A model generated the notes under the pieces. The model was given only the letters and a program-made list of their open reading frames with translations, was not told where the DNA came from and searched no databases. Made by a program: the position numbers and the translations under genes. From Calditrichota bacterium (GTDB lineage: Bacteria; Calditrichota; Calditrichia; Calditrichales; Calditrichaceae): DNA of 64,000 bases. Positions within the stretch are counted from its first letter, which is position 1; each line of letters begins with the position of its first letter. The stretch spans positions 1-64,000 of the forward strand of contig JAJRSO010000035.1 in assembly GCA_024278755.1 (NCBI GenBank), in the 5' to 3' direction. This document shows, one piece after another, positions 46,120 through 59,410 of this stretch.

Positions 46120-47103
46120 TTATTCTCCTCTGAAATAACGCATAAACTGAACACGCTCATAAACGGCCGGGTCTTCCGACTTGCTTTGACTCATCTTGCC
46201 TCTAAAATCATTGAGGGAAGCAAAATTATGACGATCCATCCAGCTTTCCAATTCCTCCAGCAGGTTCTGTAAATAGGATTTATTGTTTTTATACAAGGTC
46301 GATACAACCTGAACCGAACTAGCGCCGGCAAGCAGTTGTTTAATCACGGCGGCCGCATCATGAACGCCTGTGGATGCGGATAAGTCACATTTAACCCGTT
46401 CGGACATAATGGCAATCCAGCGCAGCGAAATGGATAATTCTTCCGATTTGCTTAAAACGTGCGTAGAAGTCAACTGAAAATTCTCAATGTCAAAATCAGG
46501 GCTCCAGAAACGATTGAATAAAACCAGACCGTCGACACCGGTTTCGGACAGGTTTTGAATAAAAGGACCCAGATTAGACGAATAGTGGCTGATTTTCAGA
46601 GCAACCGGAATGGTGACCCGTTCTTTAACCTTGTTGGCCAGATCAAAATAAATCTGCTCATTTTCTTCGGCGGTTTTATGAAAATTCGTCGGCAGGGCAA
46701 ACACATTCAGTTCCAGGGCGTCGGCGCCGGCCGCTTCAAATTTCTGTGCATAGTAAAGCCATTCATGCGCAGACACACAATTGATGCTGGCAATCACCGG
46801 AATGGATACCGCCGCTTTGGCCTTTTCAATCAGTTTGATGTATGCGCTAAGATTTTTCTCTTTGATTTTGTAATCGTAGTAATCAAAGGCCGACGCATCA
46901 AAACCCTCTTTTTCTGCGCCTTTTACTTCATGTTCCATTTCATGCAGAATTTCTTCTTCGAAAATGGATTTAAGCACAACGGCGCCTGCGCCGAATTTTT
47001 CCAGTTCTTTAATATCTTCTACAGAATCGGTTAATCCGGAACTGCCCACAATAATGGGATTACGCAGGTCCAGTCCTAAATATTTGGTTGCCAGATTTGC
47101 CAT
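46120..47103 (-). CDS. Dihydroorotate-dehydrogenase-like FMN protein
   Basis: The protein has 327 residues with a TIM-barrel FMN fold of the DHODH/PreA type. It starts LATKYLGLDLRNPIIVGSSGLT, with SIPVIASINCVSAHEWL, GADALELNVFALPTN, VALKISHYSSNLG and SASTGVHDAAAVIKQLLAGA. The active-site segment does not match a canonical class 1 enzyme closely, so true dihydroorotate oxidation is not proven. It is 108 bases after the ferredoxin/GltD-like gene with a good ribosome site (AAAGGAAG). PreA-PreT enzymes pair a similar FMN protein with a GltD-like protein, so a functional link is plausible. Confidence 0.8.
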   Translation of the reverse strand: MANLATKYLGLDLRNPIIVGSSGLTDSVEDIKELEKFGAGAVVLKSIFEEEILHEMEHEVKGAEKEGFDASAFDYYDYKIKEKNLSAYIKLIEKAKAAVSIPVIASINCVSAHEWLYYAQKFEAAGADALELNVFALPTNFHKTAEENEQIYFDLANKVKERVTIPVALKISHYSSNLGPFIQNLSETGVDGLVLFNRFWSPDFDIENFQLTSTHVLSKSEELSISLRWIAIMSERVKCDLSASTGVHDAAAVIKQLLAGASSVQVVSTLYKNNKSYLQNLLEELESWMDRHNFASLNDFRGKMSQSKSEDPAVYERVQFMRYFRGE

Positions 47104-47211: not shown

Positions 47212-48984
47212 TTACTCATCCAGTAAAAAATGCGTAATGCCTTCTACCGCTTTAACACCGTCGGCAATGGCGCTGATGGCATCCGCCGTACGGTTCACAC
47301 TGTCGCCACCCGCAAAAATATCCGGAATTGAGGTTTGCTTCAGTTCATTTACAACCATACGGCCGCGCTCGATTTTCAATTCATCCATAACGTCTTTCGG
47401 CAGGAAGGAGTAATCCGCTTCCTGTCCGATAGCGCCGATAACCGTATCCACTTCCAAAATATGCTCGTCGCCTTCAATCAAAACCGGACGCGGACGGCCG
47501 CCTTTATCATCGGCAACCATTTCGGCCATACCATATTTAATGGATTTTACCTTGCCATTATTCCCGATCACTTCCAGCGGAATGCCTTGCGGGACGATAT
47601 GAACGCCTTCATCCTCGGCGCCTTCGATTTCTTCCCAGTCGGCCGGCATATCCTGAACGCGGCGGCGATAGAGAATGGTCACTTCCGCCCCGAGACGGCG
47701 GGAAACACGAGCCGCGTCAATAGCCACATTACCGCCACCGATAACAACCACCTTTTTACCCACATCCACGCTTTTACCCAAATTCACGTCACGCAGAAAA
47801 TCAACGGCCTGAATGGAATTTTCCAACTCTTCGCCGGTTAAGCCCAGTGTGTACGGAATATGAAACCCTATACCGATAAATACGGCGTCGTTTTCTTTAC
47901 GAATGGTTTCAAATGAAATGTCTTTTCCCACGCGGGTATTGTTCACCATCTTCACGCCAACTTTTTCCATATAACCAATCTGTTTATCCAGACTGTCTTC
48001 CGGAAAACGGTACTTGGGAATACCGGCGTAGGTCATACCGCCCATTTTGGGCAAGGCTTCGTAAATAGTTACCTCAAAACCGCGCAGCGCCAGATAATAT
48101 CCGGCAGAGAGCCCTGCCGGACCGCCGCCGACAATCCCTACTTTTTTACCATTCGGTTCGGCAATGACCGGATTTAAGATGGCTGCCGGATCCGGGAATT
48201 GTTCGGTGGCAAATCGTTTTAACCAGCGAATGGCAATCGGTTCGCCGAGATGACCGATGGCACAAACGGTTTCGCACTGACGGGTACACACTTTACCGCA
48301 CATTTCCGGAAGCGGATTATTATCATAAATATATTTTAAGGCTTTGGCGTCATCGGCGTCGGCAATGGCGCCAATATATTCGGGAATATGCATATGATCC
48401 GGGCAGGCGGTGACGCAAAGCGCACAGTCCACACAGCGGGTGGCTTCGGCGCGAGCTTCTTCCTGCATATAGCCCAGCACCACTTCGGCAAAGGATTTCA
48501 CCCGTTCCGCGCCGTCCAACTCCCGCATCGGAACACGGTCAAATTGCAGCAGCGGTTCGCTGTCGCTTTTAACAAAACTGATATGCTCTTTCATTTCGGG
48601 ATTGTCTTTCCCCGGAATAAGCAGATAGGAATCGGGATCGGGCGACGTATGCAGATATTGATCGGTTAAACTGAGCGAACCGGTCGGGCACATGTCCACA
48701 CATAATCCACACCAACAGCAGCGTCCGTTGTCCACGCGCGGGCGCAAACCGGAATCGCCCTTGGCCGCTTCGATTCCGTCTAACTGAATCATATCAATCG
48801 CGTCGTTCTGGCAAATGGTACTACAGGTGCCGCAGCCGATACATTCTTCCAAATCATTGAAATGGAATCCACGGTAACGCTGGGCCGTATCTTTTTTCTC
48901 GATCGGGTAACGTACCGTATGTGGTTTTTTACCTAAAAACTTTAATGCGGAAAAAGGAACCAGAGCGCCTTTTATGTTCATCAT
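47212..48984 (-). CDS. NuoI/MbxN-like ferredoxin fused to GltD/NfnB-type flavoprotein
   Basis: The protein has 590 residues. Residues 1-125 look like the NuoI/MbhN/MbxN subunit: HTVRYPIEKKDTAQRYRGF followed by two 4Fe-4S motifs, Cys48-51-54-58 and Cys89-92-95-99. Residues 180-590 look like the small subunit of glutamate synthase: a further CxxCxxCxxxCP (Cys184-187-190-194) and MCGKVCTRQCETVC (Cys229-233-237-241). An FAD site (VGIVGGGPAGLSAGYYLALRG) and NAD(P) site (VVVIGGGNVAIDAARVSRR) follow. The first ATG pair follows AGGCAAG. It would connect NAD(P)H, through flavin and clusters, with the membrane complex encoded upstream. I know of no standard complex with this fusion. Confidence 0.88.
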   Translation of the reverse strand: MMNIKGALVPFSALKFLGKKPHTVRYPIEKKDTAQRYRGFHFNDLEECIGCGTCSTICQNDAIDMIQLDGIEAAKGDSGLRPRVDNGRCCWCGLCVDMCPTGSLSLTDQYLHTSPDPDSYLLIPGKDNPEMKEHISFVKSDSEPLLQFDRVPMRELDGAERVKSFAEVVLGYMQEEARAEATRCVDCALCVTACPDHMHIPEYIGAIADADDAKALKYIYDNNPLPEMCGKVCTRQCETVCAIGHLGEPIAIRWLKRFATEQFPDPAAILNPVIAEPNGKKVGIVGGGPAGLSAGYYLALRGFEVTIYEALPKMGGMTYAGIPKYRFPEDSLDKQIGYMEKVGVKMVNNTRVGKDISFETIRKENDAVFIGIGFHIPYTLGLTGEELENSIQAVDFLRDVNLGKSVDVGKKVVVIGGGNVAIDAARVSRRLGAEVTILYRRRVQDMPADWEEIEGAEDEGVHIVPQGIPLEVIGNNGKVKSIKYGMAEMVADDKGGRPRPVLIEGDEHILEVDTVIGAIGQEADYSFLPKDVMDELKIERGRMVVNELKQTSIPDIFAGGDSVNRTADAISAIADGVKAVEGITHFLLDE

Positions 48985-49013
48985 ATTTCTTGCCTCGTTT
49001 GTTTTCTTTTTTC

Positions 49014-49096
49014 CCCCTTAAAAAAGAGGGGTAGGGGGGTTGTAATGATTTTCTTAAATTAGAGGACAACCCCTGTCGTCCCCTTTTTTAAGGGGA
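49014..49096. repeat. CCCCCTTAAAA / TTTTAAGGGG-type intergenic hairpin repeat
   Basis: CCCCCTTAAAAAAGAGGGG is followed by TAGGGGGGTTG and, about 50 bases on, CCCCTTTTTTAAGGGG. Related patterns lie at 56812-56895, 61027-61070 and 61266-61315. It lies between the nuoD-like and fusion genes. Confidence 0.5.
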
Positions 49097-49204
49097 CATA
49101 ATTTCTTTATAATTCAAAATTCTAACTCTGTCAATATCAGCTTCCGTAACAAGTTTCCTGCGGAATGACAGATTGGATATTCCTATCCTTAAGCTCTTTG
49201 CGGC

Positions 49205-50320
49205 CTACCGTTCGATCTCCGGCGGACAGGTACCGAGACTGTTCATTATAAAACTTACATCTGCGATATTCATCCCCTTAAGCATCTTTTCCAGCAGGGT
49301 TACGCCGTGCACATATGCGGGCCCGCGGACGTGAACGCGTCGCGGTTTCAGGCTGCCGTCGCTTACCACGTAGTAACCAAATTCACCGCGGGCAGACTCG
49401 GTACGCACATAGGCCTCGCCGGCAGGCACTTTCCATTTAAGCGGATTGGGACCCGGATTGTGAACGGGGCCCTCGGGCATTTTATCCAGCACCTGACGTA
49501 CAATGGATATGGATTGTTCAAATTCTTTCCGTCTTACCATCGCCCGGGAATAGACGTCGCTGCCTTCGTGAGTGATGACTTCCCAATCCAGTTTGTCATA
49601 CACCTCATATGGTTCGTCTTTCCGCACGTCGCGGGCAATGCCGCATCCGCGCAACGGAGGACCGACAACGCCCCACTCTTCGGCCTTTTCTTTGTCGATG
49701 ATGCCAACGCCCTGCGCACGTTTCAGAAAAACGGCATTTTCAAACAGCAGACGGTCGTAATCGGTTAAACGCTCTTCGAGATAATCCAGCACTTTGCGAA
49801 CTCGGTCTTTAAATCCATCCGGCAGGTCACGGCGCACGCCGCCGGCCCAGATGTACATGTGATAGACACGACCGCCTGTCAGTTCTTCAAATAGATCGAT
49901 GATGTAATCACGATCGCCCACCGTCCACTGCGGCATGGTGTACAAACCGGCAGAACCGGACTGTCCACCCATCCATAATAAATAGGTCGCCATCCGCGAT
50001 AATTCCAGCACCATAGTGCGAATATATTGTGCCCGTTCCGGTACTTCCCTGCCTTCGATTTCCTCGATGGCACGAGCCAGATTTTCTTCATTGGGATCGG
50101 GTTCCGGCACACAGATTCGGCAGACAATGGGAAAGCACTGCATCCAAAGCCGTTCTTCCATCAGCTTTTCAAAGCCCCGGTGCAGATAGCCTACATGGGT
50201 AGTTCCTCTTTGTACCGTATCGCCGGTAACCTTCAGCTCAATCATCATATTTCCGGTAATACCGGGATGCTGCGGACCGAGATATAGAGTTGTTTCTTTT
50301 TCTTGCATTATTTCTGACAT
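49205..50320 (-). CDS. NuoD/hydrogenase-large-subunit-like protein with CxxE motifs (Mbx type)
   Basis: The protein has 371 residues, homologous to complex I 49-kDa subunits and group 4 NiFe hydrogenase large subunits (LGPQHPG near the N-terminus; GGQSGSAGLYTMPQW; RTESARGEFGYYVVSDG). In hydrogenases two CxxC pairs bind NiFe. Here the first region reads RIC-VP-E (Cys70, Glu73) and the last GTC-PP-E (Cys365, Glu368), so each keeps the first Cys and has Glu in place of the second. The complex I quinone-site His (HPxxHG) is also missing (HPGITG). It is therefore neither a standard hydrogenase nor a quinone reductase; the catalytic site resembles Mbx/Mbs types at best. Confidence 0.9.
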   Translation of the reverse strand: MSEIMQEKETTLYLGPQHPGITGNMMIELKVTGDTVQRGTTHVGYLHRGFEKLMEERLWMQCFPIVCRICVPEPDPNEENLARAIEEIEGREVPERAQYIRTMVLELSRMATYLLWMGGQSGSAGLYTMPQWTVGDRDYIIDLFEELTGGRVYHMYIWAGGVRRDLPDGFKDRVRKVLDYLEERLTDYDRLLFENAVFLKRAQGVGIIDKEKAEEWGVVGPPLRGCGIARDVRKDEPYEVYDKLDWEVITHEGSDVYSRAMVRRKEFEQSISIVRQVLDKMPEGPVHNPGPNPLKWKVPAGEAYVRTESARGEFGYYVVSDGSLKPRRVHVRGPAYVHGVTLLEKMLKGMNIADVSFIMNSLGTCPPEIER

Positions 50321-50481
50321 AGGGTTAGCCTAATTTTAAGTTTTTTATTCATATTAATAAATCACAATTTTAAAATGCCAAATAACAAATAAATTCCAAC
50401 TCACAAACTCAAAATCTCAATTATTTTTGCAACTGATAATTGGAAATTGGTTTTTGGGAATTGCTTGTCATTTGTCATTTG

Positions 50482-51051
50482 TCATTTACTATCCTTAAAG
50501 TGTGGTACTTCCGTATCGTATTGTTTGGCAATGGTCTCCCGGACATCCTGTTTATCTTCGCGACCTTTACGCCATTCATAGGTTTTATCGACAAATTCGC
50601 GGGTATGAAAGTCCCGGCGCATGGGCGGCATATCTTCCCAGTCTTCCAGAATAAAATCACGCATTCCCGGATGGCCTTCAAAATCGACGCCGTTCATTTC
50701 ATGGATTTCCCGTTCGTAGGTTTCGGCCTGATCCCATAATTTGGAGATGGACTGCATCACAGGTTTTTCCCGTTCCAAACGCACTTTTACCATAATATGC
50801 ACCTTTTGCCGGTAGGACCAAAGATGGTAGACAATCTCAAATTAATTATCTTCTAACCAGTCCACACAGCTCATCATGACCAGATGCTTAAAATCCAGAT
50901 ATTCTTTTAAATAGCTGACAAAAGCCGGCAAAATACCACTGCGGAATTCAACAATAATCCGTCCCTGCCGTTGGATTTTTACCTTGGCCGAACGGAAAGC
51001 GTTGTTAATACTTTGTCTTATTTCTTCTTCGATAATAAATTTGTCGCTCAT
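50482..51051 (-). pseudogene. NuoC/MbxK-like subunit interrupted by one in-frame TAA
   Basis: Two frames, 50842-51051 and 50482-50802, are in the same reading frame. Between them, after MMSCVDWLEDN, a TAA (50844-50842) precedes FEIVYHLWSYRQKVHIMVKV, which is standard NuoC sequence (usually EFE-VYHL). One base change, GAA to TAA, explains it. The second half contains ETYEREIHEMNGVDFEGHP and the RDF motif, as in NuoC. Without the stop the product would be 189 residues, right for the subunit. Causes may be a sequencing error, a real nonsense mutation, readthrough, or restart at GTG 50802. Confidence 0.85.
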
Positions 51052-51154
51052 AAATTTACTCTTTTAATTATTGGCGCTTAACGGTTAGCTGTCAGCATGC
51101 AGCAATCAGTAATTAAATTTAACCGATAGCTGTTTACTGATAGCTGATAGCTAA

Positions 51155-51697
51155 TTACCAGTTATAATCCGGCATTTTCCAGTTTGTAATTACTTTTTTC
51201 TGATTGGCGCGATAGGTATCCAGATTTTCTTTATATTTAACCCAACCCTGCGCGGTTCCGGCATCAATTAGTTTTTGCAGTTCAATAAATCCGTCAATGA
51301 CCGCTTCCGGACGCGGCATGCATCCGTTAATAAAAATATCCACCGGCAAATAATCATCCAGACGTTTAATGGTATTGTATGAGTCCCAGTACATTCCTCC
51401 GTTAATGGTACAGGAGCCAAAGCCCATAACATATTTGGGCGACTGCATCTGTTCGTAGGTCCGGATAACCCGTTTTAGGGTTTTTACGGCCAGATAGCCC
51501 GTAATCAACAGCACATCGGCCTGGCGCGGCGTGGCGCTTCCGGTAATTCCAAACCGTTCGGCATCGTAACGGGACGTCATGGTCGGCGGAATTTCAATAG
51601 CCCCACAACCGGTTCCATAGGCCAATACCCAAAGTGAATGCTTTCGCGCCCATTTGGAAATAATATTTCCCGCTTCTTTTCCCCAGTCTTCTTTCAT
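51155..51697 (-). CDS. NuoB/MbxJ-like 4Fe-4S subunit
   Basis: The protein has 180 residues. It is the small subunit that carries the cluster nearest to the catalytic site. Typical features are TPRQADVLLITG, GFGSCTINGGMYW and VDIFINGCMPRPEAVIDG. Cluster ligands seen are Cys31 (GTGCGAIE), Cys96 and Cys126. Complex I has two adjacent Cys in the first motif (CCAIE) and group 4 hydrogenases have CxxC, whereas this protein has only one there, so the fourth ligand is missing or unusual. It lies between nuoC- and nuoH-like genes in the Mbx order. Confidence 0.92.
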   Translation of the reverse strand: MKEDWGKEAGNIISKWARKHSLWVLAYGTGCGAIEIPPTMTSRYDAERFGITGSATPRQADVLLITGYLAVKTLKRVIRTYEQMQSPKYVMGFGSCTINGGMYWDSYNTIKRLDDYLPVDIFINGCMPRPEAVIDGFIELQKLIDAGTAQGWVKYKENLDTYRANQKKVITNWKMPDYNW

Positions 51698-51789
51698 ATT
51701 TATCCTAAAAATAGTTGTTAAATTCTTTGTTTACAGTTCCCAGCCGTTAATTTTTCCTGGAAATTAGGAATTCGCTCTTGGCAATTTTA

Positions 51790-52692
51790 TTACAATAACA
51801 CCAACAGAAAGCCCGCCAGTCCAATCGCGGTCGGCCATTTCCAGAAAAAAGTCATAGCCTGTTCGGTACGAAAACGCGGATTTACAATCCCCACAAAAAG
51901 CGGGATCAGATAAAAGGCAAATGTTTTAACCAGCAGAATGGCAAAATTGGTTGCGCCACCGAGAAACAGATCCACATAAAGCACCAGCTTCACAAAAGCA
52001 AACATACCGCGATTTGTCTGCATCAGGGCCAGATATTTCCCGCCAAATTCCGAAGGCGGACCGGAGGCGATTTCTGCTGGGGCAAACGGCACGTCAAAGG
52101 GTTTATTGCCCATCATTCCCAGAAAGGCGAACATAGCCGCAACAAAAGCAAACGGCGACTGGAAGATATTCCAGTGCATAAAACTGTCCTGCGCCGCGAT
52201 AATGTTCTGGACGGAGGTGGTTTCGTTTTGCACCATTAAGGTAACCAGCGCGATAACAAATGGAATCTCATAACCGAACATTTGTGTTAAACCACGGCTG
52301 ACACCGATAGCGGAGTTTGGATTCCCAGATTGTCCGGCGCCCAGCGCCATGGCGAGACAGCCAAACACCATAATGTATAAAATGAGAATTAGATCGCCCT
52401 GAAAGCTGAATAATGAAATGGCGTTCTCTCCCACCAGGACGGGAACAAACATCAGGGTCGAAATCGTTCCGGTAATGGCAATATTCGGCGCCAGATGAAA
52501 CATAACGCCATGCGTAATAGCCGAACGTTTCGAATACAGTTTGATCACATCCACCACATTCTGAAAAATAGGCGGGCCATAACGGTGCTGTACCCGGGCA
52601 ATTATTTTTCGTCCGATACCCATATAGGTAAGCCCAACTAACGACCCGATGAAGGGCATAACGATTATCCAGATGATGCTTAATATATCCAT
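51790..52692 (-). CDS. NuoH/MbxM-like membrane subunit
   Basis: The protein has 300 residues and about eight membrane helices. It anchors the peripheral arm to the membrane arm. The typical RVQHRYGPP loop near residues 33-41 (complex I: R-x-GPN type), the acidic cytoplasmic loop with FDVPFAPAEIASGPPSEFGG, and charged residues inside helices are visible. Hydrogenase and Mbx versions have the same RYGPP form. It lies directly between nuoB-like and mrpD'-like genes. Confidence 0.92.
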   Translation of the reverse strand: MDILSIIWIIVMPFIGSLVGLTYMGIGRKIIARVQHRYGPPIFQNVVDVIKLYSKRSAITHGVMFHLAPNIAITGTISTLMFVPVLVGENAISLFSFQGDLILILYIMVFGCLAMALGAGQSGNPNSAIGVSRGLTQMFGYEIPFVIALVTLMVQNETTSVQNIIAAQDSFMHWNIFQSPFAFVAAMFAFLGMMGNKPFDVPFAPAEIASGPPSEFGGKYLALMQTNRGMFAFVKLVLYVDLFLGGATNFAILLVKTFAFYLIPLFVGIVNPRFRTEQAMTFFWKWPTAIGLAGFLLVLL

Positions 52693-52894
52693 AAAAGATC
52701 CTATTTTCTGTTTCCCTTTTTCAAGAACCTATCGAAAAGTTCTGTTGACCTTGTTTAAATTATAACATCCGTTAATTTAACCACTTTTTTTAGCCCTTTG
52801 TTTATCAACGCCCGTTAAAAATTTCCTTCGGAACGACCTCCCGTATACAACTTCTGCCTCAGCAGCGGGGCGCCTTTTTTCGAAAAGGGATTCC

Positions 52895-54751
52895 TTATAC
52901 CAGAAAATCCTTCACTAAAAATAAAAAGGCCAATGCAATTACCACAAACAGCGCATAGGTTTGTCCGTTTCCGGTGTACACATAGCGCATCACATCGAAA
53001 AGGCCTTCCAGATTATCGGCCAGGCTTGCGTATATTTTACTGACGCTGCGTTTCAAGAAGATACTAACGCCGCGGGCAAAAGGCTGGTAAAAATCAACCG
53101 CATAGTGCAAATTAATTTCTTCTCCGGGAACCTCACCGCTGGTATGAATATCTTTTAAACCGACTTTACGCGAACGTTTATACAGGGTATTAAACAGGAT
53201 AAACACAATAAAAAATACTACGGCTACGATATTCATAACCGTTATTGTGCTTACATTTCCGTAACTGTTAAACAACATGGAATGGCTTAAATCAAAAGGC
53301 GCTATCCCCATATACACCTGAGCCTGGTTAATTAAATCCAATAATTGATAGGGATAAAAACCAAGATAAACCGTTAACAACGCTAAAATTAGCATGGGGG
53401 CGCGCATCATCCAGGGCACTTCTTTAACCTCGTCAAACCGTTTGGGACGTTGCCCCAGAAAGATGGTAAAAATAATCCGGTACAAGTACAGGAAGGCAGC
53501 AGTGCTGGCCCCAAAAGCGACCACGGCAAGAAAAATCAGGTGTTTTTCAATCAGAGCTTCGTATATCAGCCATTTACCGGTAAATCCTGATAAAGGCGGC
53601 ATACCGGCAACGGTGATAATACCAAGCAGCACTACGAAAAACGTATAGGGCATCCGTGTAATCAGGCCGCCCATTTCGCTCAGCTTCCGCGTACCGGTTC
53701 TGTAAAAAACGGCGCCAACGGCTAAAAAGAGCATGCCCTTAAAAATAGAATGGTTTACGGCCTGATAGAGTCCGGCGGTTACGCCCATGGACGACGAAAG
53801 AGAGAAACCTAAGATAATATACCCCAACTGCCCGATAGAGGAATAGGCCAGCAATTTTTTCGCATCATCCTGCACAATGGCTTTAAACGTGGCAAGTAAT
53901 GCGGTAATAGCGCCAAACCAGGCTAAAATATATCCCGGCAGAGAAACCCCCTGGATAGTTATTACACTGGAGGCTAATTTACCTGCGCCAAAGACGAAGA
54001 AGAGCAAAGCTAAACCATAAATACCCATTTTGGATAAGGCGCCGGAAAACAACGCCGTAAACGGAGCCGGCGAAATTGTATAGGCGTCGGGCGCCCAGGT
54101 ATGTAAGGGCATCATGGCCGCTTTAACGGCAAAACCAATCACAAACAACACAAACAACCAAATCTGTAAAGTAAGGCTGAAGCCACTCCAACCCGCAGAA
54201 AGGACATCAAACAAAAAGCTTCCCAATTGTGCATAGACGATTAAAAGCGCCGTTAACATAGCATAGGCGCCAATCATACTCATCACAAAATACCGGAGTC
54301 CGGCCGCCTGCGCTTCATAACGGTAATAAATAACCATTAAAAAAGAAGACCAGGTCATTATTTCCCAAAAGAAAAAGAAGGAGAGCAAATCGCCGCTAAC
54401 CACGATTCCGAACATACTGGCTACCGTTATACACATAGCAAAGCAGTAAAAATCAACCCGTTCTTTACCTTTCATATAAGAGCCGGAAAAGATGGCTGTT
54501 AAAATCGCCAAACCAAAGATAATCATTCCAAATAGCCAGGACAGGGGATTGATACGCCAAATAATATCAAACCCAAGCATTTTAAATGTAAAACTGCTCA
54601 GCGTGCCCTGCAATCCGAGAAACAGCCAGCCGGCCCAAATCAGGCCGACAATGGAGACGCCTACCTTAAGGATATAATTGAATTTTCCCACAAGGTATGC
54701 TAATACTGCGGCGCCAAATAAAATGCTTAAAATAAAAGGAATCGTTTCCAT
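52895..54751 (-). CDS. MrpD/NuoL-like antiporter subunit, long form (MbxH' type)
   Basis: The protein has 618 residues. It belongs to the NuoL/M/N-MrpA/D proton-pumping family, with 14-16 helices. Conserved features are WEIMTWSSFLMV (Glu in helix 5), MPLHTWAPDAYTISPAPFTALFSG and LLAYSSIGQLGYIILG. About 100 residues beyond the usual MrpD length give a soluble or amphipathic segment and one extra helix at the C-terminus, as in MbxH'. It would form the second ion-translocating module of the complex. Confidence 0.9.
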   Translation of the reverse strand: METIPFILSILFGAAVLAYLVGKFNYILKVGVSIVGLIWAGWLFLGLQGTLSSFTFKMLGFDIIWRINPLSWLFGMIIFGLAILTAIFSGSYMKGKERVDFYCFAMCITVASMFGIVVSGDLLSFFFFWEIMTWSSFLMVIYYRYEAQAAGLRYFVMSMIGAYAMLTALLIVYAQLGSFLFDVLSAGWSGFSLTLQIWLFVLFVIGFAVKAAMMPLHTWAPDAYTISPAPFTALFSGALSKMGIYGLALLFFVFGAGKLASSVITIQGVSLPGYILAWFGAITALLATFKAIVQDDAKKLLAYSSIGQLGYIILGFSLSSSMGVTAGLYQAVNHSIFKGMLFLAVGAVFYRTGTRKLSEMGGLITRMPYTFFVVLLGIITVAGMPPLSGFTGKWLIYEALIEKHLIFLAVVAFGASTAAFLYLYRIIFTIFLGQRPKRFDEVKEVPWMMRAPMLILALLTVYLGFYPYQLLDLINQAQVYMGIAPFDLSHSMLFNSYGNVSTITVMNIVAVVFFIVFILFNTLYKRSRKVGLKDIHTSGEVPGEEINLHYAVDFYQPFARGVSIFLKRSVSKIYASLADNLEGLFDVMRYVYTGNGQTYALFVVIALAFLFLVKDFLV

Positions 54752-54859
54752 ATTTTTCCTAATTCAATCTGTTAGATTTTGAATAAATCCTTTGCAAAAC
54801 TAAAAACAAAGTACTTCTTTAAATCTCTGCGCTAACGTTTCACAAACTTAAAATTTCCT

Positions 54860-56332
54860 TTATAAACCAGCCGATAAAACTGCTTTTATATAAATTGATT
54901 TATCTATTAATTCCGCTGCCGCCGGTTTTAAATAGGTCATTACCAGGTCGGGATACAAACCGGTCACCAGGGTAATCAGCGCCAAAATAGACATAGCCAC
55001 CAGCGCAGATTTAGGAACATATTGAACCTTTGCGCCATCGTGCGGGGCCTTAAAATAAAGCCTTCCGACCACACGCAAATAATACACTGCTTCGATGATA
55101 CTGCCAAACAGAGCCAGGGTCGCAACAGCGATAAATCCATGGCTAATGGTTTCCGATAAAATAATAAACTTCGACCAGAACCCACTCAGAGGCGGCAAGC
55201 CCAAAATGGCAAACGCGCCAAAGGCAAAAAAGAAACTGAGCAGCGGTTTAACCCGGCCCATTCCGTCCATATCTTCTATGTTTTTACTACCGGAATAGAA
55301 TACAAGATAACCGGCAGAAAGGAAAAGCAGGGGTTTAATCATGGCATGGTTAAACATCTGAAACAGGCCGCCTTCCACACCCCGAGTTGTCGCCAGCCCG
55401 AGCGCGATAAGCACCAATCCCATTTGCCCAATGGACGAAAAGGCCAGCATTCGTTTGAGCTGTTTTTGACGAATGGCCGACATTTCGGCTATTAATAGCG
55501 TTATGATTCCGGCAATGAGAATAAAATGGAAAATGCCCTGAAAACTAAAGATGGTATAAATTAAACGCGCTAAGGCATATACTCCGGCCTTGACCACGAT
55601 ACCGCCAAAGGCCGCGCCGATTGGTGTTGGCGCCTGCGAATATGCATCGGGCGCCCAGCCGTTTAGAGGGAACATTTCCGCTTCGATTCCAAATCCGGTT
55701 ATTAAAAGGATTAAGGCCATAATCGCAATACGCGGATCTACATCTTTTAAACGAACGGCAATTTGCGCCATATTTAGCGTTCCGGTTGTGGCATAAATCA
55801 GGGCAATCCCCAAAAGAATAAATGTAGAGGCCATGCTTCCGATAAGCAGATATTTAAAGGCTGCTTCCGCACCGTCCCGGTCGCGCAGAAAGGCGGTTAA
55901 AGCATAGGATGAAATACTGGTAATTTCCAGAAAAACAAACAGATTAAAAATATCCCCGGTAAGTACCATTCCGGTGGCGCCTGCCGTAAGCAGTAAAAAG
56001 AGCATATGGTATTTTTCATTGGGCTCTTCTTCCACAAAACGGATATTGTAAACGGCAACCACAAAACCAACGAGAGAAATAATCAAAGCCAGTACATTTC
56101 CCAACGGGCCAATGGTCAAATTGATTCCCAGAGGCGGCGCCCAGGCGGCAATAATCACAATAACCGGTTTCACCATCGAATGCGGCAACAGCATAACCGT
56201 TTCGTACAAGTTAAAACCAATTATCAGAACTGGAACATATTTAACCAGGCCTTTGGAAATACGCGCCAGCGGTGGTATTAAAAAAGCCGCGAACAGGGGT
56301 AAGGCAATCATTAATACAGGGTCAAGATACAT
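54860..56332 (-). CDS. MrpD-like antiporter subunit (MbxH type)
   Basis: The protein has 490 residues, the normal MrpD/MnhD length. Conserved residues are in LFVFLEITSISSYALTAFL, PLNGWAPDAYSQAPTPIGA, GGIVVKAGVYALARLI and MLAFSSIGQMGLVLIALG. It carries proton or sodium channels in the membrane arm. Two MrpD copies next to each other are typical of Mbx, whereas Mbh has one; this supports the Mbx-like assignment. Confidence 0.92.
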   Translation of the reverse strand: MYLDPVLMIALPLFAAFLIPPLARISKGLVKYVPVLIIGFNLYETVMLLPHSMVKPVIVIIAAWAPPLGINLTIGPLGNVLALIISLVGFVVAVYNIRFVEEEPNEKYHMLFLLLTAGATGMVLTGDIFNLFVFLEITSISSYALTAFLRDRDGAEAAFKYLLIGSMASTFILLGIALIYATTGTLNMAQIAVRLKDVDPRIAIMALILLITGFGIEAEMFPLNGWAPDAYSQAPTPIGAAFGGIVVKAGVYALARLIYTIFSFQGIFHFILIAGIITLLIAEMSAIRQKQLKRMLAFSSIGQMGLVLIALGLATTRGVEGGLFQMFNHAMIKPLLFLSAGYLVFYSGSKNIEDMDGMGRVKPLLSFFFAFGAFAILGLPPLSGFWSKFIILSETISHGFIAVATLALFGSIIEAVYYLRVVGRLYFKAPHDGAKVQYVPKSALVAMSILALITLVTGLYPDLVMTYLKPAAAELIDKSIYIKAVLSAGL

Positions 56333-56448
56333 CTATTTTTCCTTTTATTTTCAGGCAGAGCGTTCAATTAAAATTCCATTTTTTCGATAACACAGTTTTT
56401 CATACAAGATACAAGTATGTATCGAAATACGGAGAAATGTTTAAACCG

Positions 56449-56790
56449 CTACCATTTTAATTCCCGGATTTTGTTGATGTTTAATGTTTTATGGTGGTCA
56501 TAAATTCGAATTACAATGGATAGTGCCAAAGCCGTTACAGCCACACCAATTACAATAGCGGTAAGCACCAGAGCCTGTGGCACCGGATCCACCATATCGC
56601 CGGCAGTCAGGGTCGGATTAGAAAATATTGGCGCTGTCTTGTCCTTAACATAGCCCAGAGAAACGAGTAATATATTCACACCACTATCGATAAGCGTCAA
56701 ACCTAAAACAATTTTAATCATATTCTTTTTTACCAGTACCGCGTAGATACCGATTAAAATCAAACTAATTGCCGCAACATAGTAAATCAT
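56449..56790 (-). CDS. MrpC/NuoK-like subunit (MbxG type)
   Basis: The protein has 113 residues and three membrane helices. Typical NuoK/MrpC sequence includes IGIYAVLVKKNMIKIVLGLTLIDSG in two parts and VDPVPQALVLTAIVIGVAVTALAL, with the buried Glu/Asp partly replaced. It helps to form the ion path next to MrpD. Confidence 0.93.
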   Translation of the reverse strand: MIYYVAAISLILIGIYAVLVKKNMIKIVLGLTLIDSGVNILLVSLGYVKDKTAPIFSNPTLTAGDMVDPVPQALVLTAIVIGVAVTALALSIVIRIYDHHKTLNINKIRELKW

Positions 56791-56811
56791 TTTTTCCCTT
56801 TAAAATTTTTA

Positions 56812-56895
56812 TTCCAACCTTCCTTTAAAAGGAGGGCAGTAGGTTGTGCCAAATCAAAAACACCCCCATAGTCCCCCTTTGATCAGGGGGAAACA
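56812..56895. repeat. CCTCC/GGGGG-type intergenic hairpin repeat
   Basis: CCTTCCTTTAAAAGGAGGG is followed by AGTAGGTTG and then CCCCCTTTGATCAGGGGG. This has the same general layout as 49014-49096, inside the operon between the MrpB- and MrpC-like genes. Confidence 0.5.
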
Positions 56896-56898
56896 ATG

Positions 56899-57585
56899 TT
56901 ATTTAACCGTCTGTAACATGGTATCCAGCAGGGCTGTAAGCTCGGCGCCTACCTTAAAACCCACGGCCACATAAATCAACGGAATCACGCCTGCGCTAAA
57001 CAGTGTATTTGCCGTGCCGAGCGGTAAAATGTTGGCCAGAAAACTGGAACCGTATGCCAATCCGAGTAAACCGATAATTACAAACACCGAGCCTGCCGAC
57101 GATTCTACTCTTGATAAGATAACATGGTTTACATGATAAGTTCGGTAAGACATAAACATCAGTAAAAAGCCGGATGCAATTATGGCGCCGCCCTGAAATC
57201 CGCCGCCGGGCGTCAGATGGCCGTGAATAAATACATAAGCGCCCAGAATAATAATAAGCGGAAAAAGAATCCGCGCTCCGGTTTTAACAATGACACTGGC
57301 ATTCTGACGCGCCCGTTCGGTGGGCCGTTTACTATATAATAAGGCGCCCATTCCGGTAGCGGCCAAAAACAAAACAGTCACTTCGCCCAGGGTGTCAAAT
57401 CCCCTGTAATTCACAACAATGGAGGTCACTAAATTCGCTGCCCCGGTTTGCTGCAATCCGTCCTGTAAGTATTTTAAACCGACCCCTTCCAACACTCTTA
57501 CCACACCAAAGGGAACCAGTAAAAACGTGGAAAGCAGATAATATCCTATAAATCCTAAAAATAACACGGCTATTGCTTTTCTCAT
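56899..57585 (-). CDS. MrpB-like subunit with MbhE-like N-terminus (MbhE-MbhF fusion)
   Basis: The protein has 228 residues. Residues 1-90 resemble MbhE (ANLVTSIVVNYRGFDTLGEVTVLFLAATG), and the rest MrpB/MbhF (AYVFIHGHLTPGGGFQGGAIIASGFLLMFM in two parts). In Mbh complexes these are separate genes. Its ATG overlaps the stop of the MbhD-like gene by four bases (translational coupling). It is part of the Mrp module that links ion transport to the redox arm. Confidence 0.88.
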   Translation of the reverse strand: MRKAIAVLFLGFIGYYLLSTFLLVPFGVVRVLEGVGLKYLQDGLQQTGAANLVTSIVVNYRGFDTLGEVTVLFLAATGMGALLYSKRPTERARQNASVIVKTGARILFPLIIILGAYVFIHGHLTPGGGFQGGAIIASGFLLMFMSYRTYHVNHVILSRVESSAGSVFVIIGLLGLAYGSSFLANILPLGTANTLFSAGVIPLIYVAVGFKVGAELTALLDTMLQTVK

Positions 57586-57821
57586 TCTTCCATTCTCCCG
57601 GTTCTGCGGATGGTAATCATAAAAATAATTGTAGAAAGACCGACGCCAATTGCGGCTTCGGTTAGGGCTACATCCGGCGCTTGCAATAAATAAAAATAAA
57701 TGGACGCAATCAGACTGACAACCGAACCGGAAATCACCGCGGCAACCAAATCTTTACTGCGAACCGTATTAAGAGCGCCGGCAATTAAAATAACGGTTAA
57801 TATGATAAGTAAAATATCCAT
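57582..57821 (-). CDS. MbhD/MrpB'-like subunit (DUF4040)
   Basis: The protein has 79 residues with about three short helices. The family segment SLIASIYFYLLQAPDVALTEAAIGVGLST in two parts contains the conserved APDVALTEAA. It corresponds to the last part of MrpA in multi-subunit Na+/H+ antiporters. Stop and start codons overlap both neighbours. Confidence 0.9.
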   Translation of the reverse strand: MDILLIILTVILIAGALNTVRSKDLVAAVISGSVVSLIASIYFYLLQAPDVALTEAAIGVGLSTIIFMITIRRTGRMEE

Positions 57822-58177
57822 CAGGCCGCCTCTTCTTTTTCTTCTGATTCCTGTACTGCTTTTTTATAGGCGTCGATATCCTTTTTCTGCCACATCTTAA
57901 TGCCAATACGATAACTTCCCCGGGCCAAAGCATGCGAACTGATAGGATTGGAAAGTAAAATAAACAACGAAATAATCAGTGTTTTTAAAAACCATTCCGG
58001 ATTTATCAGGCCAACTCCCATAATGGTGCCGACAGCACCAAGGGTGGTCGCCTTAGTACCGGCCTGCATCCGGTTATATACATCCGGCATACGTAAAATA
58101 CCCAGAGCGCCTAACAAAAGAAACAGAACGCCAAAACTTGTTAACACATATCCCGTATAATGCAAAGCGTCCAGCAT
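57821..58177 (-). CDS. MrpG-like subunit
   Basis: The protein has 118 residues with three helices. The MrpG motif GILRMPDVYNRMQAGTKATTLG is complete. A charged C-terminal tail (KKDIDAYKKAVQESEEKEE) extends into the cytoplasm. Start and stop overlap the neighbours by one base. Confidence 0.93.
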   Translation of the reverse strand: MLDALHYTGYVLTSFGVLFLLLGALGILRMPDVYNRMQAGTKATTLGAVGTIMGVGLINPEWFLKTLIISLFILLSNPISSHALARGSYRIGIKMWQKKDIDAYKKAVQESEEKEEAA

Positions 58178-58425
58178 TAAAGCCCCCCTTCCAGATAACG
58201 GGCAATAGTCAGTACCCCGACAAACCCCAGCACACCGTAAATAAGGGCAACGTCAATATAGATATAACGATGAAAAAACAGACCGAGCAGTACCAGCAGC
58301 GCTGTAGAAATAGTAGTCAGCGTATCCAGCGCGACAACGCGATCAGAAGTGGTAGGCCCCAGAATAAAGCGCACGGCTGCTAAAACAAGAGCCAAACCGA
58401 TAACGCCGAAAAATATATAAATCAT
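58177..58425 (-). CDS. MrpF-like subunit
   Basis: The protein has 82 residues and three helices, with the MrpF features RFILGPTTSDRVVALDTLTT and IYIDVALIYGVLGFVG. The ATG overlaps the MrpE stop by four bases. Confidence 0.93.
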   Translation of the reverse strand: MIYIFFGVIGLALVLAAVRFILGPTTSDRVVALDTLTTISTALLVLLGLFFHRYIYIDVALIYGVLGFVGVLTIARYLEGGL

Positions 58426-58910
58426 TCAAAAATCTCCTTAATGTATTTTTCGAACACAGCAGAGATTTCCCCAAACGTTTCCTGGGGATTTGTTGTGGTA
58501 ACATTTATCCAGTGAATGTAGAGTTTGTCTTCAATGACGTCTACCGTCAATGTGCCCGGCGTTAAGGTGATGGAATTGGCCAGCGCCAGTTTGGCAATAT
58601 TGGATTTAAGCTTGGTGGGCACTTCTACAATACCCGGGTCAATAGGCATTTTCGGACTAAGTACGCGTTTTGCCACATCCATATTGGCCTTAATCATTTC
58701 CCAAACAAACACAAACAGATAGCGGACTGTAAATACAATTTTCCGAAAAGACAGATTACTTAAACCACCTTCTGAAAATTGTTTTCCGGTATAGAACGCC
58801 ATAATAAATGCTACAACCGCACCGACTATCAACTCGTCGGTTTGCAGCGAGGTAGTAAAGGCTACCCAAAAAATAAAAAACACTAAAAAACTGTAAATAT
58901 ACCTGGACAT
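58422..58910 (-). CDS. MrpE-like subunit, first gene of the Mrp/Mbx-like operon
   Basis: The protein has 162 residues from the ATG at 58910 (MSRYIYSFLVFFIFWVAFTT). The frame extends to an ATG at 58967 but the extra part is charged and does not fit the family. MrpE features are TDELIVGAVVAFIMAFY, VFVWEMIKANMDVAKRVL, ANSITLTPGTLTVDV and YIHWINVTT. This is the first gene, so the operon promoter should lie in the AT-rich region after 58911. Confidence 0.9.
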   Translation of the reverse strand: MSRYIYSFLVFFIFWVAFTTSLQTDELIVGAVVAFIMAFYTGKQFSEGGLSNLSFRKIVFTVRYLFVFVWEMIKANMDVAKRVLSPKMPIDPGIVEVPTKLKSNIAKLALANSITLTPGTLTVDVIEDKLYIHWINVTTTNPQETFGEISAVFEKYIKEIFE

Positions 58911-59410
58911 CGTTTTTCCCGTTTCTTGTAATATCCTGCGCCATTTTGCAACAATTGTGCCGGACATTAAACACGATACAACTCCTTAATATTAAAGAAA
59001 TTAGTACTTGCATATTTTTAAATTCTAAATTTTAGATTCTAAATTTGTGAATTGTATCTTATTGTTTTTCTTTAAAATGGGGTGTTTTTTATATTTAAGA
59101 AATATAAACAGAATTATCATCAATAGGCAGCAGATATAAGCATATTTAATGGATTTTTTAATTATTTTTATGAAAACGGCTAAATATTGATAGATATCCG
59201 AGGGCATGTCCTAAATATTTCATCTATAAACCGCAGAATAAATCCCATAAATTGCAATAAATCGCAAAACTATTTTCATTTTTAGTAATTGTATGAATTA
59301 TTCAGCAGAGAAGAAAACGAATAGAATAATAAAACACCTTTATAAAACGAAATTCGAACCGTTTGGATAAGCAAGATAAAATACAAAATAATTTGCAGGC
59401 CATGTTCATT
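58911..59410. other. AT-rich gene-free stretch upstream of the Mrp/Mbx-like operon
   Basis: No coding frame is supported in these 500 bases. It should contain the promoter of the 14-gene cluster on the minus strand; no clear -35/-10 pair or operator could be picked out by eye. Confidence 0.5.

Follow-up and report, generated by a model that had tools for sequence, protein, structure and literature searches.

The window (the whole 64,000-nucleotide stretch of Calditrichota DNA that was analysed) carries an operon of 13 genes on its reverse strand (47212-58967), and the last of these genes encodes a fusion protein (Table 1). From first to last the genes correspond to MnhE, MrpF, MnhG, MbhD, MbhE/MnhB, MrpC, MbsH, MbsH', NuoH, NuoB, NuoC, NuoD and the fusion, an order that we take to be that of the MBS genes (Mrp-like genes, H, H', M, J, K, L, N). 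A preliminary description had placed the fusion at the end of an Mbx-type operon and had read in one frame NuoI-type 4Fe-4S motifs, further Cys groups, and FAD and NAD(P) sites. All of these are present in a single ATG-started, stop-free frame of 590 amino acids, and the place of the fusion in the operon is confirmed, although 'Mbx-type' is better read as MBS-type.

Table 1. Genes of the operon and the gene that follows it, in order of position.
Feature	Coordinates	Strand	Match or comment
Dihydroorotate-dehydrogenase-like flavoprotein (PRK07565)	46120..47103	(-)	follows the fusion gene
Fusion subunit	47212..48984	(-)	MbsN/NuoI-like 2x[4Fe-4S] + Fer4_20 2x[4Fe-4S] + FAD/NADP(H) two-Rossmann domain (predicted)
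MbsL/NuoD-like	49205..50320	(-)	best PDB 6u8y_L, 368 bits vs 254 for complex I
MbsK/NuoC-like	50482..51051	(-)	in-frame TAA at 50842-50844 in this assembly
MbsJ/NuoB-like	51155..51697	(-)	best PDB 6u8y_J, 229 bits vs 142 for the next
MbsM/NuoH-like membrane anchor	51790..52692	(-)	best PDB 6u8y_M, 183 bits vs 83 for the next
MbsH' antiporter-like, 618 aa	52895..54751	(-)	best PDB 6u8y_X (618 aa), 338 bits vs 208
MbsH antiporter-like	54860..56332	(-)	best PDB 6u8y_H, 404 bits vs 251 for the next
MrpC/MbsG-like (NuoK family)	56449..56790	(-)	Pfam Oxidored_q2; NCBIfam cation/H+ antiporter subunit C
MbsE-like (MbhE + MnhB)	56899..57585	(-)	best PDB 6u8y_E, 208 bits vs 71 for the next; Pfam
MbhD/MbsD-like	57582..57821	(-)	Pfam PF13244
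MnhG/MbsC-like	57821..58177	(-)	Pfam PF03334
MrpF/MbsB-like	58177..58425	(-)	Pfam PF04066
MnhE/MbsA-like, first gene of the operon	58422..58967	(-)	Pfam PF01899

Within the fusion, residues ~8-123 match NuoI/MbsN and hold two cysteine groups (C48, C51, C54, C58 and C89, C92, C95, C99). Residues 161-263 match Fer4_20 and hold two more (C184, C187, C190, C194 and C229, C233, C237, C241), equivalent to C39, C42, C47, C51, C86, C90, C96 and C100 of Thermotoga maritima NfnB, and the motifs GGGPAG (at 286) and GGGNVAID (at 416) lie in the part that matches Pyr_redox_2 (residues 281-576). The top NuoI-type relative of the first part in the PDB is Pyrococcus furiosus MbsN (6u8y_N, 1.6e-24, against 1.7e-14 for the next NuoI). 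Both parts are placed confidently in the predicted AlphaFold2 structure (pLDDT 91.5, pTM 0.84, with lower confidence over the first 30 residues), and the best Foldseek match of the flavoprotein part is NfnL (5jca, TM 0.89), while no protein with both parts appears among the best 50 Foldseek matches. The architecture is not new to databases: the NCBIfam model NF010590/PRK13984 ('putative oxidoreductase') aligns over 586 residues of the fusion (3-588, to 7-607 of 611 in the model) at 660 bits, which is below the equivalog cut-off of 946 bits, with an identical architecture.

Conservation of the fusion and its operon

At least 80 loci with the fusion were recovered in a scan of named genome contigs, and those listed span Calditrichota, Bacteroidota, Ignavibacteriota/Chlorobiota, Acidobacteriota/Aminicenantes, Cloacimonadota, Spirochaetota, Marinimicrobia, Fermentibacteraceae-type MAGs, Thermotogota, Halanaerobiales, Clostridiales and Proteobacteria (including Thiohalocapsa, Lamprobacter, Thiothrix, Sedimenticola and Magnetovibrio). 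Among the matches listed, the closest homologue is 97 per cent identical and is titled Calditrichaceae, the family to which the host belongs. At E<1e-120, the full-length PRK13984 model detects the fusion in 12 of the 40 Calditrichota genomes; of 14 named genomes serving as controls, only T. maritima has a match, and there the protein lies above the equivalog cut-off. A closed, single-contig Calditrichaceae genome of 4,978,541 bp, probably that of C. abyssi, also contains the full-length fusion.

The tabulation of both-domain proteins and their neighbours for which the preliminary description had called places a NuoD-like gene directly upstream of the fusion in all 80 listed loci that have at least 1.2 kb of upstream sequence. 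Where 9.5 kb is available, homology to NuoH, B, C and D and to MbsH and MbsH' was found in 46 of 46 listed loci, and each Mrp-like gene in 41-44 of them. Within Calditrichota, ten genomes have both an MBS-type NuoB and the fusion, one has the NuoB only and two have the fusion only, at least one of these last two loci being cut by a contig end.

It might be supposed that an assembly or annotation artefact joined two genes here, given that the host genome is a draft of 79 contigs and that the nearby NuoC-like gene has an in-frame stop. The probability of this is negligible, and the artefact reading was rejected: the same fusion occurs in at least ~80 independent loci and in the closed genome, and among the matches listed all 16 cluster cysteines are invariant across 88 loci. 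The frameshift or assembly junction against which the preliminary description had cautioned is likewise ruled out by the full-length homologues, which are found in the 12 Calditrichota genomes and in at least ~80 other loci. In the NuoC/MbsK-like gene itself the TAA is codon 70, where a relative of the same genus (L020) has a sense codon, and it is either an assembly error or a real lesion.

Two types of the fusion, ~44 per cent identical, occur in different genera of the Calditrichaceae and fall into separate regions of the NADP(H) clade described below (type 1 in L015, L018 and L022; type 2 in the window, L016, L017, L019 and L020), which suggests horizontal transfer. Identical fusion sequences also appear under different labels (L081 = L022; L018 = L075), and because L081 is titled Caldisericaceae but equals a Calditrichaceae contig, some MAG titles are unreliable. 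MbsH and MbsH' are separate genes in the window and apparently form one protein of ~1046 amino acids in many lineages (L015:9649-12789, L041:3715-6858, L093:3600-6746).

Proximal cluster and coenzyme site

In MBS, three cysteines around the proximal [4Fe-4S] cluster (MbsJ C28, C93 and C123) hold the catalytic site that cleaves sulfane bonds, while MbsJ C25 and MbsL C85 and C385 are dispensable and the His38 and Tyr87 of complex I are absent (PMC7684303). The NuoB-like subunit of the window has C31, C96 and C126 at the positions of the three ligands and Gly at that of MbsJ C25, and its NuoD-like partner has C70 and C365 for C85 and C385, the two Cys that MbsL retains, with T22 and V71 at the quinone His38 and Tyr87 positions. 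The three proximal-cluster cysteines are kept in essentially all loci examined among the matches listed. A tandem CC in the NuoB-like subunit was seen in one Clostridiales locus only among the aligned loci listed, and among those listed the His38 position is occupied by His in no others than Thermotogota, Mcinerneyibacterium and a single Clostridiales locus. Nor does the NuoD-like subunit have a four-Cys NiFe site: Group 4 [NiFe] hydrogenases (Mbh/Ech) carry two CxxC motifs in the large subunit, whereas here the C-terminal motif is cut to one Cys (TCPPEIER).

The best explanation of the operon is a bacterial MBS in which MbsN has been fused to a GltD/NfnB-type module. This identity is favored because the core subunits tested match MBS better than complex I, the His38/Tyr87 pair is missing and the three-Cys proximal cluster is kept; it would be a variant rather than a plain MBS because the MbsN domain is joined to a GltD-type flavoprotein and there is no separate MbsN. 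The likeness to P. furiosus MBS (formerly MBX; 6u8y) covers the kinds and order of the subunits, the top PDB match of each core subunit tested, the proximal cluster, the missing quinone and NiFe residues, and the two antiporter-like subunits with their Mrp-like module. The differences are the Gly in place of MbsJ C25 and the end subunit, where the 208-residue ferredoxin-accepting MbsN of P. furiosus contrasts with a 590-residue fusion to a GltD/NfnB-type, putatively NADP(H)-specific flavoprotein. The identity of the subunits and the residues at the active site suggest that the electron acceptor, on which the preliminary description is silent, is sulfane sulfur rather than quinone or ferredoxin.

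Residues Y439, R440 and R441 of the fusion form the triplet YRR at the coenzyme site. Among the matches listed, 84 fusions were aligned, of which 44 have YRR and 40 have [ASC][LM]E, as counted from the multiple alignment only; pairwise tblastn scrambled the motif letters in distant members. The [ASC][LM]E triplet is typical of NAD(H) Rossmann folds. In a tree built without the triplet columns the two types are split by one branch, with one change and a support of 100, so that the family splits once, into a putative NADP(H)-type (YRR) and a putative NAD(H)-type ([ASC][LM]E) clade. In NfnB and DsrL the YRR triplet binds the 2'-phosphate and is predictive of NADP(H) (PMC7596348), and the flavoprotein module of the window is predicted to use this coenzyme. 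A NuoEFG module is absent from the operon, and the only 51K proteins in the host genome are RnfC- and PduS-like. The earlier proposal that the fusion provides an entry for nicotinamide coenzymes in place of NuoEFG is thereby supported, by its position in the operon and by the predicted specificity of YRR.

Proposed function and its alternatives

There is reason to think that the operon encodes an NADP(H)-linked bacterial MBS that reduces sulfane sulfur with NADPH and pumps ions in doing so, without bifurcation; we would give this reading a probability of about 0.6. NADPH would reduce the FAD in the GltD-type module by hydride transfer. Single electrons would then travel through four [4Fe-4S] clusters, two in this module and two in the NuoI/MbsN-like domain, and reach the proximal [4Fe-4S] cluster that three Cys hold in the NuoB/MbsJ-like subunit, where a sulfane S-S bond (of polysulfide or of an organic persulfide or polysulfide) would be cleaved. 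The free energy would let MbsH and MbsH' pump H+ and would move Na+ via the Mrp-like module, and the fused module would act as a plain two-electron/one-electron switch and not as a bifurcating flavin. The architecture, the operon, the identity of the subunits, the conserved residues and the motifs are read directly from the sequences; from these we infer which cofactors are loaded, which coenzyme is used, that sulfane sulfur is the acceptor, that ions are pumped and in which direction electrons flow. Indirect support for a sulfane role comes from physiology: sulfur induces mbxA of T. maritima 4.4-fold (PMC9431562), and fermenting C. abyssi forms sulfide from sulfur and thiosulfate (PMC5317091). 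No sulfur gene recurs beside the operon among the neighbors of the fusion loci listed, and adjacent sulfur genes were dropped as a line of support.

Bifurcation had been suggested in the preliminary description. A bifurcating or confurcating enzyme, in which an NfnB-like FAD splits the electrons of NADPH between ferredoxin and the membrane complex, would suit a flavoprotein part whose fold is most similar to NfnL and which keeps the flavin-site Arg (R326, invariant in the fusion homologues among the matches listed). Such an enzyme is nevertheless very unlikely. Glu117 of NfnB, a ligand of its proximal cluster, is replaced by Lys256 in the fusion, a residue invariant in all homologues aligned among the matches listed, and StnC of Sporomusa ovata StnABC has at the same position Lys170, which coordinates the cluster in a GltD-type NADPH module that has lost bifurcation (PMC10482914). 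StnC has the Arg too, and for that reason the Arg does not discriminate. Moreover, no NfnA-type partner is present in the operon, whereas the host has its own NfnAB elsewhere in the genome, and with the NfnB of that pair, which keeps the Glu (LERF), as a control, a bifurcating NfnB was rejected on the Lys/Glu position. The fusion shares with NfnB the eight cysteines, YRR and the Arg and is further set apart from it by being joined to a membrane complex. It resembles StnC as a putatively non-bifurcating GltD-type NADPH module feeding a Nuo-like cluster chain, although StnC is a soluble protein, has a NuoG-like part as its fusion partner and is coupled to bifurcating StnAB.

Two further readings were considered. 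Ferredoxin may have access to the NuoI domain of the fusion. MbsN-type domains take ferredoxin in MBS (PMC7684303), and the complex might be an ion-translocating ferredoxin:NADP+ oxidoreductase, with electrons entering from reduced ferredoxin at the NuoI domain and leaving via the GltD module to NADP+, or the reverse, and with the NuoB cluster as a coupling element only. The fusion brings both sites into one chain, and Pyrococcus Mbx was once described as a ferredoxin:NADP+ oxidoreductase (as quoted in PMC6349859). We regard this as unlikely, because the conserved proximal cluster with its open coordination and the subunits of the substrate chamber would then have nothing to do and energy coupling at that cluster would go unexplained, and because Rnf and NfnAB in the host genome already cover ferredoxin/NAD(P) exchange. 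Still less likely is an NADPH:quinone oxidoreductase, that is, an alternative complex I. The subunit plan is indeed that of complex I minus NuoEFG, and the C. abyssi paper files its locus as a second NADH-dehydrogenase-type cluster (PMC5317091). However, Thr and Val replace the quinone residues, the tandem Cys pair of N2 is missing, and every core subunit tested is nearer MBS than complex I. The host's separate Nuo operon, by contrast, has the tandem CC in NuoB and the quinone-site His, which makes the contrast between MBS type and complex I internal to one genome, and with this operon as a control a quinone-using variant was rejected on the active-site residues and the PDB ranking. That Nuo operon (L109, G000:C41:36000-54000) comprises 11 genes (NuoA-D, H-N) without NuoEFG and adjoins genes resembling alternative complex III. 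The complex of the window has a common ancestry with complex I in the peripheral arm and the antiporter-like subunits and differs from it also in its Mrp-like Na+ module.

For the NADPH-linked reduction of sulfane sulfur that we prefer, the driving force would be small. The ferredoxin/polysulfide couple of MBS yields 41 kJ/mol per two electrons (PMC7684303); NADPH/polysulfide would yield less, so that pumping should be modest, with fewer ions expected per turnover, and the direction of flow may reverse. A tentative and rather doubtful extension is that the family as a whole forms a reversible, ion-gradient-coupled sulfane:NAD(P)+ oxidoreductase of two coenzyme types. Anaerobes of the NADP(H) clade, including that of the window, would reduce sulfane sulfur, and sulfur-oxidizing Proteobacteria of the NAD(H) clade (Thiohalocapsa, Lamprobacter, Thiothrix, Sedimenticola) would run the reaction in reverse, using ion-motive force to reduce NAD+ with the electrons of sulfane sulfur and so to supply the fixation of CO2.

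Known relatives and neighboring genes

Complexes of this kind have been described before, and the preliminary description's view of an undescribed system stands only in part. The architecture is in NCBIfam, and the fusion occurs in T. maritima, where the complex goes by the name of MBX; what appears not to have been discussed is the consequence of the fusion. No description of the fusion was found in the openly accessible literature, and priority is uncertain; the accessible parts of the papers on C. abyssi (PMC5317091), T. maritima (PMC9431562) and the Riftia symbionts (PMC11636981) do not mention a fused flavoprotein. T. maritima MBX is presented as a ferredoxin-driven, sulfur-induced MBS homologue of 13 subunits (PMC9431562), and from the relatives L082 and L084 we infer that the fusion is one of these 13. 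Its coenzyme site is probably of the NADH type, as Thermotogota relatives carry SLE or CLE where the window has YRR. C. abyssi belongs, like the host of the window, to the Calditrichaceae, and its locus Cabys_1521-1531 is given as a second Nuo-type cluster without NuoEFG, for which donors other than NADH, e.g. ferredoxin, were proposed (PMC5317091). A study of Riftia symbionts lists Mrp-Mbx as of unknown direction (PMC11636981).

So far MBS has been viewed as an archaeal enzyme driven by ferredoxin, and for its homologues in bacteria (T. maritima, the Riftia symbionts and C. abyssi) the donor has been given as ferredoxin or left unspecified. That many phyla share a conserved NAD(P)H module in this end subunit would change the expected donor, the energy yield and the possible direction of flow, and the fusion would constitute a second, NuoEFG-independent route by which nicotinamide coenzymes enter complex-I-like machines. 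The split between NADP(H) and NAD(H) types is a directly testable prediction.

Three kinds of gene recur next to the operon: those for a dihydroorotate-dehydrogenase (DHOD)-like protein, for rubrerythrin-like proteins and, in Aminicenantes, for Rex-like regulators. The DHOD-like gene (PRK07565) is found in 20 of the 85 fusion loci listed, before the first or after the last gene of the operon, and because it occurs on either side in so many loci its product is probably linked functionally to the fusion complex, as a possible accessory. The pairing of a GltD-type with a DHOD-type protein recalls dihydropyrimidine dehydrogenase, and the protein of the window appears to be without the usual DHOD active-site Cys motif (ELNVFALPTN). 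A rubrerythrin-family gene lies close 3' of the fusion in many loci (e.g. L018:2473-2946, L084:11001-11558, L088:11878-12396), with 14 loci forming one cluster and others being more divergent, and its presence suggests protection against oxygen or peroxide. Upstream of the operon in Aminicenantes/Acidobacteria, a Rex-like gene (Put_DNA-bind_N + CoA_binding; L044:698-1321, L048:636-1280) fits regulation of the operon by the redox state of NAD(H).
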